Assembly (NCBI RefSeq): GCF_030433855.1
Contig: NZ_JARUXC010000012.1
Span: forward strand, 1 to 64,000
From: Agreia sp. PsM10
GTDB taxonomy: Bacteria; Actinomycetota; Actinomycetes; Actinomycetales; Microbacteriaceae
Length of the DNA: 64,000 bases
Direction of reading: 5' to 3'
Both the position numbers and the translations under genes were made by a program. A model generated the notes under the pieces. The model was not told the DNA's origin and did not search any database. It saw only the letters and a program-made list of their open reading frames with translations. Positions 42,014 through 46,662 of the stretch are shown piece after piece (within the stretch, counting starts at the first letter, position 1; the number at the start of each line of letters is the position of its first letter).

Positions 42014-43453
42014 GTGTCTAAAGTCTTGAGCAGTCTTCCGGTCGGCGAACGAGTCGGCATCGCATTCTCCGGTGGTCTCGATACCTCCGTTGCCGTCGCG
42101 TGGATGCGCGAGAAGGGTGCGGTTCCCTGCACCTATACCGCCGACATCGGCCAGTACGACGAGCCCGACATCGACAAGGTGCCCGCACGCGCTCTCGAGT
42201 ACGGGGCCGAGGTCGCACGCATCGTCGATGCGAAGTCCGCCCTGGTCGAGGAAGGCCTCGTGGCCCTCGCGTGCGGCGCGTTCCACATCCGCTCGGGTGG
42301 CAAGACCTACTTCAACACCACGCCCCTCGGTCGCGTCGCGACGGGCACGCTGCTCGTTCGTGCCATGAAGGAGGACGGCGTCGACATCTGGGGCGACGGC
42401 TCCACCTACAAGGGCAACGACATCGAGCGGTTCTACCGCTACGGCCTGCTCGCCAACCCTCGCCTGCGCATCTACAAGCCGTGGCTCGACTCGCAGTTCG
42501 TCGGCGAGCTCGGTGGCCGTAAAGAGATGAGCGAGTGGCTCGTCGCTCGCGGGTTCCCCTATCGCGACTCGGTGGAGAAGGCCTACAGCACCGACGCCAA
42601 CATCTGGGGCGCCACCCACGAGGCCAAGAAGCTCGAGGAGCTGAGCGCCAATATCGAGATCGTCGAACCCATCATGGGCGTCGCGTTCTGGCGCGACGAC
42701 GTCGAGATCGCCTCAGAGGTCGTGACCGTGCGCTTCGAGGCCGGTCGCCCCGTCGCCATCAACGGAGTCGAATACCCCGATCCCGTGGCCCTCGTTCTCG
42801 AGGCGAACGCCATCGGAGGCCGTCACGGGCTCGGCATGAGCGACCAGATCGAGAACCGCATCATCGAGGCGAAGAGCCGCGGCATCTACGAGGCACCGGG
42901 CATGGCGCTGCTGCACATCGCCTACGAGCGACTGCTCAACGCGGTGCACAACGAAGACACCATCGCGAACTACCACTCCGAGGGCCGCCGTCTCGGCCGT
43001 CTCATGTACGAGGGTCGCTGGCTCGACCCGCAGTCGCTCATGCTGCGCGAATCCATCGTGCGCTGGGTCGGCTCGGCCGTCACCGGCGAGGTCACCGTGC
43101 GCCTGCGCCGCGGTGACGACTACACGATCCTCGACACCGCGGGCCCCAGCCTCAGCTACCACCCCGACAAGCTCTCGATGGAGCGCGTCGGCGATGCAGC
43201 CTTCGGCCCCGACGACCGTATCGGCCAGCTCACCATGCGCAACCTCGACATCGCGGATTCGCGTGCTCGTCTCGAGCAGTACGCCGCCGCCGGCCTCGTC
43301 GGAGGTGCGACGGCTGAGCTCGTCGGACAGCTCGAACAGGGCGAGTCGACCGAGATCTTCGATGCTGTCGAGGAGTCGGAGGGCGGCGAGGCACTGGATC
43401 GTGCCACCGACCTCGCCTCCGAGGGCGCGGCGTTCGACTCGGGAACCGACTAG
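42014..43453 (+). CDS. argG: Argininosuccinate synthase (intact)
   Basis: 479 residues of the long E. coli-type ArgG; joins citrulline and aspartate with ATP in arginine synthesis. The N-type ATP pyrophosphatase loop [11 protein letters not shown] is at 17-27; [19 protein letters not shown] and [18 protein letters not shown] are typical. The start is GTG with TAGGAT ending 7 nt upstream. The last 276 bp (from 43178) have a second, damaged copy at 46387-46662, so the 3' end of this gene may have been supplied by an inserted element. Confidence 0.95.
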
Positions 43454-43464
43454 CGCTTAGTCGG

Positions 43465-44463
43465 TCAGGCTGCGCCGAGAAGTCGTGGATCCGTCGGGTC
43501 CTCGACGAAGTCACCGACAATCCATTGGGCTGTCGCGTTGATTCGCGTATTGACCGCCTCGACGCGGTGAGACAACAGGAGCAGTCCGGGGAACATGCCT
43601 CGACTGTTCTGACGCTCCTTCGCCGTGCGGGCCTCTCCCGTTCGCGATGCCGTGGCCAACCCCCTCTTCTCCAGCTGTGCAGCAACACGGTTGAGTTCGT
43701 CACGTAGACACGCCTGGTCGTTCTCCGGAAGGCTCGTGAACTTCTCGACGAGCCGCTTCGCGCTGGCATCGGCCAACGAGACGACCGCTATGCGGATCGC
43801 CTTTCTTCGCCCTTTCGCGGCCTGGTCGACCTTCTTCGTTTGGCGGGGATCACGTAACCGCCTCGTCAGACGCGCCACGCAGGCACAACTACTCACGATG
43901 AGAGCGATGAACGCGACGATCACTGCGGCCTGGGGGATGCCGATGTCCTGTTGGTACAGCCAGAACACGAGGGCGACGATCGGGATGCCGAACCCGGGGA
44001 TCACCCACGCCAGCCCGTCTCTTGGCGGGATGTGGCGAGCGTAGGGAAGCCATCGCAGCGGCTGTGAGACAGCGGCCACGGTCAAGCAAATCGAAGACAG
44101 CGTCATCATCCACGGTCGCCATTCGACAGGGATCGAGACGCCGGTTCGTCCAGGGCCGGCAAACGTGAGCCCGACCGAAATGGCGACGGAGACGAGGACG
44201 ACCGCACTGAGAACGCCGACGAGCCGGTCGACCGCCGGGCGGATCGACCACATCGCCTGGTACGGGGTATCGAGGTTCACGCGAGTCTTCATCGCACCTC
44301 GCTCGAATCGATCGAGCTCCTCGTCGACGATCGCGGCGTAGGCCGGAACAGTGTTGATGATCAGCTCATCGAGGACATGCCGAGAACGTCGATACGACCG
44401 TGTGCTCACGTGAGCCGCCCATTCCGAGGCGGGCGACGACGTCACATGGGAATCACGGTGCAT
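43465..44463 (-). CDS. Four-helix membrane protein of unknown function (cassette gene 1)
   Basis: 332 residues, no family recognised. Layout: about 80 soluble N-terminal residues rich in charged groups, four membrane helices between about 82 and 200 (LVGVLSAVVLVSVAISVGL, WMMTLSSICLTVAAVS, GFGIPIVALVFWLY, AAVIVAFIALIVSSCA), then about 130 cytoplasmic residues, basic and helical (DPRQTKKVDQAAKGRRKAIR). No signal peptide. TAAGAT ends 6 nt before the ATG. The same layout occurs in the gene at 45346-46296. Convergent to argG with 11 bp between. Confidence 0.75.
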   Translation of the reverse strand: MHRDSHVTSSPASEWAAHVSTRSYRRSRHVLDELIINTVPAYAAIVDEELDRFERGAMKTRVNLDTPYQAMWSIRPAVDRLVGVLSAVVLVSVAISVGLTFAGPGRTGVSIPVEWRPWMMTLSSICLTVAAVSQPLRWLPYARHIPPRDGLAWVIPGFGIPIVALVFWLYQQDIGIPQAAVIVAFIALIVSSCACVARLTRRLRDPRQTKKVDQAAKGRRKAIRIAVVSLADASAKRLVEKFTSLPENDQACLRDELNRVAAQLEKRGLATASRTGEARTAKERQNSRGMFPGLLLLSHRVEAVNTRINATAQWIVGDFVEDPTDPRLLGAA

Positions 44464-44587
44464 TGAATCATCTTACGAACGGTGCGCCATCGGAAGACGA
44501 TTGTGCACCGGTCGGGTGGCAAGATGTCTTCAAGGATGCGCTGATGTGCTTATCTGGCTCGATGACCACCAACCGCAAGGAACTGAC

Positions 44588-45226: not shown

Positions 45227-45345
45227 AGGCCGACGATAGCGTGTATCCCCACGGCTTGAGCCAGATGGTGATGGGTCGAAGGATGACTGCGCCGTGGTAA
45301 GTGAGGACGGGGTTGCCATAACGGGTGGCGACACCGTGCCAGTGC

Positions 45346-46296
45346 CTAGGAGGAAAGCGCTGTTTCACGACTCGGCTTTCCCTGCTTCGGGTAGGGGCCA
45401 CCACCCAGTAAAGGCTCCACCACCTCATAGAGCTGAAACTCGCCCAAAGCTTTCTCACTCATGCGGAGCGGGACCTGACCCTGGTAGAGCCCTTTATTGA
45501 TGAGCACGGCGAGTACTCCATTTCGTTGGTTTCTCAACCGTTTCTGAACCTTCGGATCGACAGTCCCCGGCACATCGATCGTCTTCACGGCGTCTTGTAT
45601 CTGCCCAAGCGCCTGTTTGTATTTCGGCATGAGCTCACCGAGGTAGGCGTTGACGGCCGGCTGCACATCGGCGAGGTCCGTTCTCAGAGCACGAGCTGCT
45701 CCGGCGTGGCGGACGAGCGCCAGAATTCCGAATCCAACCACGACGAGGGCGCTCACCATCAGTATTGTCAAAGGCGCCCCCACCTCTGGGTCTGAAACCT
45801 GCGACGCAACGTAAAGGTTGAACGCGAGCGTAAGCGCGGTCACGACAGCTGCGCCCATTGCCCAATGCGTCATAACTCCAACCCACACGCGATCTCTCAG
45901 AGTCGAAAGCACCTTGATAATGCAGAGTGCCGCGGTGAGGGCCAGCAACACCGCGGCTGTCGACACAGTGGTCATATAGTCATACGATCCTCGAAGGCTT
46001 ATGCCCCAGGCGACTGCTGGCAGCGCGACAATCATGAACGACACCAACGAGAGCAGGAAGTGCTCTGACTGGCGCACGTCCTGGTTTTGTCTCGCTAGAA
46101 CGGGTGCCATCAATCGACGCCCATCGTGGCGTTGCTCGATCCCCCGCGCAACGGGAGCAAACTCCCCAACGACTCGCCGTATCGAGGACTGTACGTCGTG
46201 ATAATCCTTGAACAATTCGGCTTCCAGACGAGCCAGCCCGTTGACCGTCAGGTCTTCAGCTCGAAGATTTCGTGCCCAGTCATCGACGTCCGCCAT
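45346..46296 (-). CDS. Four-helix membrane protein of unknown function (cassette gene 3)
   Basis: 316 residues, no family recognised. About 75 soluble N-terminal residues (ADVDDWARNLRAEDL), four membrane helices (HFLLSLVSFMIVALPAVAWG, VSTAAVLLALTAALCIIKVL, HWAMGAAVVTALTLAFNLYV, LTILMVSALVVVGFGILALV), then about 120 C-terminal residues with helical, basic stretches. It shares the overall plan, but no obvious sequence identity, with cassette gene 1. GAAGGAG 4 nt before ATG 46296 decides the start. Codon use looks less G+C-biased than in the flanking housekeeping genes. Confidence 0.75.
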   Translation of the reverse strand: MADVDDWARNLRAEDLTVNGLARLEAELFKDYHDVQSSIRRVVGEFAPVARGIEQRHDGRRLMAPVLARQNQDVRQSEHFLLSLVSFMIVALPAVAWGISLRGSYDYMTTVSTAAVLLALTAALCIIKVLSTLRDRVWVGVMTHWAMGAAVVTALTLAFNLYVASQVSDPEVGAPLTILMVSALVVVGFGILALVRHAGAARALRTDLADVQPAVNAYLGELMPKYKQALGQIQDAVKTIDVPGTVDPKVQKRLRNQRNGVLAVLINKGLYQGQVPLRMSEKALGEFQLYEVVEPLLGGGPYPKQGKPSRETALSS

Positions 46297-46386
46297 GTGT
46301 CTCCTTCGTAACATGCAGACAATAATGCACTTAGTTGACTCTAACGAGGCGGGGCATCCGAGGCCGAACTGGCCCTCACCTTGCCG

Positions 46387-46662
46387 ATGGAGCGGGTCGG
46401 CGACTCTGCTTTCGGCCCCGACGACCGCATCGGGTAGCTCACCATGTGCAGCCTCGACATCGCCGATTCGCGTGTGCGGCTCGAGCCGTATGCCGCCGCG
46501 GGCCTTGTCGGCGGCGCGACGGCCGAGCTCGTCGGCCAGCTCGAACAGGGCGAGTCGACCGAGATCTTCGACGAGGCCGAGGGATCTGACGGCGACGACG
46601 CACTCGACCGGGCCACAGCCCTCGCATGCGAGGGCGCGGCGTTCGACTCGGGAACGGACTAG
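46387..46662 (+). pseudogene. Decayed duplicate of the argG 3' end
   Basis: Starts ATGGAGCG like codon 389 of argG and runs to a TAG stop with exactly the same length (276 bp) and no gap. The protein reads [16 protein letters not shown], then an in-frame TAG where argG has Gln, then goes on in frame to [10 protein letters not shown] and the stop. Many differences fall at third codon positions, so the copy diverged while under protein-level selection and lost function later. It is most simply the displaced original tail of argG, or the tail of another allele brought in. Confidence 0.9.

Follow-up and report, generated by a model that had tools for sequence, protein, structure and literature searches.

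A second argG 3' end beyond three orphan genes in Agreia sp. PsM10 looks more like a scar of DNA exchange than the footprint of a self-inserting element

The argG locus and its repeated 3' end

The window analysed here is a stretch of 64,000 nucleotides from Agreia sp. PsM10 (contig NZ_JARUXC010000012.1, positions 1 to 64,000). It contains an intact argG gene, a group of three open reading frames, a further copy of the 3' end of argG, and a gene on the opposite strand that is referred to here as geneX (Table 1). The genome has one match to argG and two matches to the argG tail. The 3' end of argG itself (tail1) and the second copy (tail2) align over 276 bp (43178-43453 versus 46387-46662) without gaps, and tail2 has a single in-frame stop codon (TAG), as a sequence-only reading of this DNA had described; the two are 86% identical. 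The full repeat amounts to 279 bp (43176-43454 and 46385-46663), with a spacing of 3209 bp. Among 398 genomes of the family, two have two tail matches, namely PsM10 and G387, and the first match in G387 covers residues 1-58 only. An assembly chimera was considered and judged unlikely, since 40 of 276 sites distinguish the copies and the lipoprotein gene occupies the same place in A. bicolorata.

Table 1. Features at the argG-geneX junction of Agreia sp. PsM10 (positions in the window).
Feature	Positions	Strand	Basis
argG, argininosuccinate synthase, 479 aa, intact; own 3' end (tail1) at 43178-43453	42014-43453	+	NCBIfam NF003779, 835.9 bits
P1, 332 aa, orphan, three hydrophobic stretches	43465-44463	-	Family searches; own genome only
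P2, 212 aa, putative lipoprotein	44588-45226	+	Signal peptide and cysteine judged by eye; same site in A. bicolorata
P3, 322 aa, orphan, four hydrophobic stretches	45346-46314	-	Family searches
X1, 32 bp, directly left of tail2	46349-46380	+	26/32 match to 46849-46880 of geneX
tail2, decayed duplicate of the argG 3' end, one in-frame stop	46385-46663	+	Alignment, repeat search, site counts
Proposed second argG-geneX junction copy (tail2, spacer, last 197 bp of geneX)	46385-46881		Identity drop to G002; tree of 46685-46881
geneX, 410 aa, intact, 3' end inside the odd tract	46685-47917	-	No Pfam match

The differences between the two tails fall at codon positions 1, 2 and 3 in the numbers 3, 9 and 28. 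This bias had been taken to mean that both copies were once under selection. The bias is real (28 of 40 at the third position); the 25 changes private to tail2, however, are distributed 3, 9 and 13, that is, 13 at third against 12 at first and second positions, as in a copy that has decayed. If all sites were alike, two thirds of the private changes would be expected at positions 1 and 2, and 12 of 25 is fewer than that (p = 0.042, falling to 0.008 on the assumption of three further third-position changes). Since only 12 of these 25 changes lie at positions 1 and 2, tail2 was under constraint during part of its separate history and decayed thereafter.

A block of 35 bp (43328-43362) is identical in the two tails, and it had been suggested as the core of an attachment site. 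The data lend this suggestion no support: the block is unremarkable because 416 of 5000 shuffles that keep the codon-position classes reach the same length, and no relative of the argG tail is found in viral contigs. Nothing in print on argG as an attachment site was found in the open papers searched.

Genes of the islet

The interval between the argG tails, the islet, is 2930 bp long and holds the three open reading frames P1, P2 and P3. Their G+C contents (0.631, 0.617 and 0.579, respectively) are lower than the 0.675 of the window, and none of the three has a match above the curated cut-off in Pfam or NCBIfam; the lower-G+C cassette of three unknown genes noticed in the sequence-only reading is thus confirmed. 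The best Pfam match of P3 is DUF6057 (E = 0.0042; 16.5 bits, below the cut-off of 29.8), the best E value of the islet proteins is about 0.05 in both NCBIfam and PHROGs, and PADLOC gives no match. The same reading saw no integrase, and indeed no gene for a site-specific recombinase or for mobility is found among the three open reading frames with Pfam, PHROGs, PADLOC and NCBIfam. There is no room for an integrase gene in the islet either, because the longest gap among the islet genes, or from these genes to the repeats, is 124 bp.

No relative of P1, P2 or P3 was found in a plasmid collection or in viral contigs, and none of P1 or P3 in a phage collection. P1 is present in one of 299 family genomes and one of 297 order genomes, in both cases PsM10 itself. 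P2 is present in four of the 299 family genomes (PsM10, A. bicolorata with 82%, G279 with 56% and G321 with 28% identity), and a scan of named genomes for P2 gives one locus, in A. bicolorata VKM Ac-1804. P3 is present in three of the family genomes, with two weak matches besides its own (E = 5.5e-6 and 5.4e-4) that are not recovered by tblastn at E 0.01, and in two of the order genomes (its own and one at E = 2.8e-4). At the DNA level the islet matches two of the eight genus genomes, PsM10 included.

The structure model of P2 is middling (pLDDT 60.3); a fold search of the PDB with this model gives nothing at E ≤ 0.001, and the P2 profile gives nothing among PDB sequences at E ≤ 1. The model of P3 (pLDDT 49.9) was too poor for use. 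P2 has the look of an exported lipoprotein, while P1 and P3 resemble membrane proteins. The three genes are orphans and probably envelope-associated, and a role of their products in the envelope is our working guess. In G279, a member of another genus of the family, the P2 homologue lies within L055:4442-6721, a stretch with no argG nearby, between two open reading frames (4442-5221 and 5403-6095) that look membrane-protein-like by eye; tblastn at E 0.01 detects no relationship of these two with P1 or P3.

The site in other Agreia genomes

The locus was compared with seven other Agreia genomes (G001-G007, of which G007 is A. bicolorata). Neither the argG tail nor geneX is detected in G005, so the site is visible in six of the seven. 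In four of these six (G002, G003, G004 and G006) it is empty, with argG joined directly to geneX via a short spacer, as had been anticipated for relatives. An insertion is supported because these four sites are empty. A second full argG, which had been named beforehand as the layout that would speak for simple duplication of the gene, is seen at none of the six sites.

The remaining two sites are occupied. A. bicolorata has a reduced islet, in which argG is followed by about 35 bp resembling the P1 3' end, then by the lipoprotein gene (88% identical in DNA) and geneX. Its right joint lies at GTCAG, which is common to both parent sequences, as after a deletion, and the islet looks decayed. The lipoprotein gene there (L059:10001-10625) shifts frame near its C-terminus and runs directly into the geneX flank. 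At the junction in G001 (L032:6703-8151) a MarR-type regulator and an alpha/beta hydrolase occupy 1.5 kb that is unrelated to the islet. A second match to the argG tail was searched in G001 and A. bicolorata and is absent; because these inserts come without one, occupying the site needs no argG repeat.

The third-position divergence of P2 between PsM10 and A. bicolorata is 0.239, and that of five flanking genes in the same pair ranges from 0.198 to 0.320. As the divergence of P2 falls within the range of the flanking genes, the islet may date back to the separation of the two species and have been lost in G002, or else may have been exchanged later.

Affinities of the tails and of the geneX 3' end

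Tail1 has 23 differences from its nearest relative, G002, and 27-37 from G001, G003, G004 and G007. Tail2 is about equidistant from all, with 37-42 differences from tail1, G001, G002, G003, G004 and G007 (G006, whose argG is one codon longer, was left out of these counts). The two tails had been expected to group apart in a tree. The 276-bp maximum-likelihood tree lacks the resolution for this: it admits tail1 with tail2 (p-AU 0.374), both tails with G002 (0.471) and tail2 with G002 (0.377), and tail2 with A. bicolorata is borderline (0.0567). The genus together with tail2 forms a clade (support 81/90), and in a tree with tail1 only, PsM10 and G002 join with a support of just 59/25. Single sites favour tail1 with G002, as at sites 191, 204, 212 and 222 tail1 has the state of G002 and tail2 the commonest state of the others; site 117, at which tail1 and tail2 share a state against all others, speaks for tail1 with tail2. 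By these informative sites, the intact tail1 is weakly indicated as the host-like tail. The tails by themselves do not settle the mechanism.

GeneX finds nothing among PDB sequences at E ≤ 0.1. Longer paralogues of it exist elsewhere in seven of eight genus genomes (the best of each at 42-52% identity), some of which also contain a counterpart of its C-terminal part. Over its final 197 bp (46685-46881) geneX does not resemble the nearest relative, G002, and the match resumes from 46882. Identity to G002 is 86% in 46693-46789 (90% to A. bicolorata), drops to 71% in 46790-46881 (59-72% to all six relatives), and is then 95% in 46882-46961, 93% in 46962-47141 and 96% in 47142-47399; per 120 bp it is 90-99% from 46903 to 48572. 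In the tree of 46685-46881 a pairing of PsM10 with G002 is rejected (p-AU 0.0127), as is a pairing with A. bicolorata (0.0134), and in the tree of 46882-47400 PsM10 with G002 is supported (96/95). Because the clade tested for 46685-46881 was picked after the drop in identity had been noticed, and because PsM10 with G002 passes when tail2 is joined to this tract (p-AU 0.303), the evidence for an odd affinity is rated as fair where the geneX end is concerned and as neutral with regard to the tail. In 46693-46789, PsM10 is 86-90% identical to A. bicolorata, G001, G003 and G004, and G002 is 84-85% identical to the same four; the comparison leans slightly towards PsM10 as the exchanged genome, and G002 could be the exchanged one instead.

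The two ends of the odd DNA differ in kind. The change of affinity at 46881/46882 lies in register within the intact geneX, so that one end is in homologous DNA. At the other end, argG homology begins abruptly at 46385 next to unrelated sequence, that is, at a non-homologous joint, and X1 hints that this joint is more complex. The counterpart of X1 in geneX is formed by the last bases of the odd tract, to which X1 is closer (26/32) than to G002 (19/32). When 2000 random 70-bp pieces from the window were compared with the 1-kb right flank, 11 matched it as well as X1 does, none of these 11 with an end within 5 bp of 46881; a previous draw yielded 0 of 386. At the left joint a geneX piece is followed by TTGC, the argG tail, the spacer and geneX, the order of a tandem joint or of a circularised fragment that entered through a single crossover. 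The genome contains a Ku gene, which makes end joining possible and nothing beyond that.

Origin of the arrangement

A repeated gene tail around a lower-G+C cassette is usually read as the footprint of an integrase. The present case offers a cheap check on such readings, which is to ask whether the odd DNA ends at the end of the gene or continues into the next one. The repeat, the empty sites, the other occupants of the site and the change of affinity at 46882 are direct observations, and with these in view the locus looks more like the scar of ordinary DNA exchange than the footprint of a self-inserting element.

The reading that we favour, at somewhat under an even chance, is that recombination independent of an integrase put in place a second copy of the argG-geneX junction, about 500 bp long, the islet lying within the first copy. 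P1, P2 and P3 follow the argG stop codon. To their right would stand a junction copy of about 497 bp (argG 3' end, spacer and geneX 3' end) derived from a diverged Agreia-like allele. Its right end would enter the host-like geneX in register, as homologous recombination leaves it, and its left end would be joined non-homologously, through four extra bases, to a 32-bp piece of this same geneX region. A likely route is that one end arose by homologous recombination and the other by end joining, or that a circularised fragment entered through one crossover. Afterwards, the stranded argG tail would have decayed, argG keeping its own tail and geneX taking the newer 3' end. We infer the foreign source of the junction copy, the order of events and the mechanism from these features. 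Several observations count against the favoured reading. A one-step insertion into the host geneX does not explain why X1 matches the odd tract at 26 of 32 positions and G002 at 19 of 32. The tail trees also allow tail1 with tail2 and tail2 with G002, and no donor was found, none of the six relatives with the site being close to 46385-46881 throughout.

Both routes have published parallels. One-sided illegitimate integration of linear DNA and its circularisation followed by a single crossover have both been reported from E. coli (PMC3240628). As in homology-facilitated illegitimate recombination (PMC5361080, PMC3240628), there is one homologous end, one non-homologous joint and, as is proposed for that process, a 3' end left behind the module; unlike in that model, the homologous end here seems to lie in the downstream gene, and the event itself is not observable.

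A tandem duplication within the lineage is a less probable account, and we consider it unlikely. A unit of about 500 bp (argG tail, spacer and geneX 3' end) would have been doubled, and the islet would later have entered the redundant first copy, sparing its first 279 and last ~36 bp. The position of X1 left of tail2 fits the joint expected from such a duplication, its spacing of 500 bp from the counterpart (X2) fits the unit, and argG is whole in the first copy and geneX in the second. What this account leaves unexplained is that the geneX 3' end of the second copy is unlike G002 when the rest of geneX is like it. Moreover, had the tail been silent from the outset, roughly two thirds of its changes would be expected at positions 1 and 2, and the observed share is low in this respect.

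The e14 element of Escherichia coli is a prophage that enters by site-specific recombination. A decayed element of this type, which entered argG near codon 389, mended the gene with its own tail1, left the old tail2 behind and lost its integrase, is improbable. It would account for the duplicated tail with differences mainly at third positions, the empty sites in relatives and the lower G+C of the islet. The precedent is close in outline, as e14 separates 163 bp of icd and supplies a 3' end, the distal copy being a pseudogene fragment (PMC6379469), so that there, too, an insert is flanked by two copies of the 3' end of a gene. The argG locus differs from the e14/icd case in having no recombinase, a length of only 2.9 kb and odd DNA that reaches the next gene. 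The idea of an element integrating into the argG 3' end and restoring it, put forward in the sequence-only reading, is only in part supported: it keeps its empty sites but meets an islet with neither a recombinase nor room for one, proteins unmatched in plasmids, phages (P1 and P3 only) and viral contigs, and a repeat with no distinctive core. In addition, the intact tail is, weakly, the host-like one by informative sites. The geneX end is the chief obstacle to this type of element, because all DNA to the right of the stranded tail should then be host DNA, and the geneX end does not look host-like. With no recombinase present and with affinities that point in the opposite direction, membership of the e14/icd type is not claimed.

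A displacement is quite improbable. Incoming DNA with an argG 3' end and the islet would have recombined within argG at its left side and been end-joined at its right side, making tail1 and the islet foreign and tail2 native. The anatomy is shared with the model of Vibrio effector arrays, where a 3' end is stranded behind the new module (PMC5361080). In a displacement, however, both tail2 and the 3' end of geneX ought to lie close to G002, which the geneX part does not, and no upstream breakpoint is visible, identity to G002 staying at 86-97% across all 250-bp windows between 38700 and 43449. Equally doubtful is the speculation that the islet is a minimal non-autonomous element (P1, the lipoprotein gene and P3) that enters the argG 3' end and mends it with its own copy, with a recombinase acting in trans or since lost, and so spreads a new envelope-protein module between Agreia lineages.

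An insertion hotspot between argG and geneX

Insertion hotspots between conserved flanking genes are a known kind of site. The junction of the convergent genes argG and geneX is most likely a small hotspot of this kind, with small gene islets that come and go among Agreia lineages. As in other hotspots, the flanking genes are the same and the contents are empty, reduced or unrelated in congeners; unlike in these, the contents are small (0.6-2.9 kb) and mobility genes are not found, and the comparison covers six relatives with the site. The locus thus marks a small Agreia insertion hotspot as well as three orphan genes.

The neighbourhood of a tRNA-Gln gene further along the window (48501-50390) may be a second insertion spot. 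The tRNA gene is followed by a surface-protein-like gene on the minus strand (48666-50390) that encodes 574 aa with leucine-rich repeats, a CshA repeat and a bacterial Ig domain. G002, G003 and G004 have no exact match to the tRNA there, and the DNA after tRNA-Gln differs in G001, G006 and A. bicolorata.
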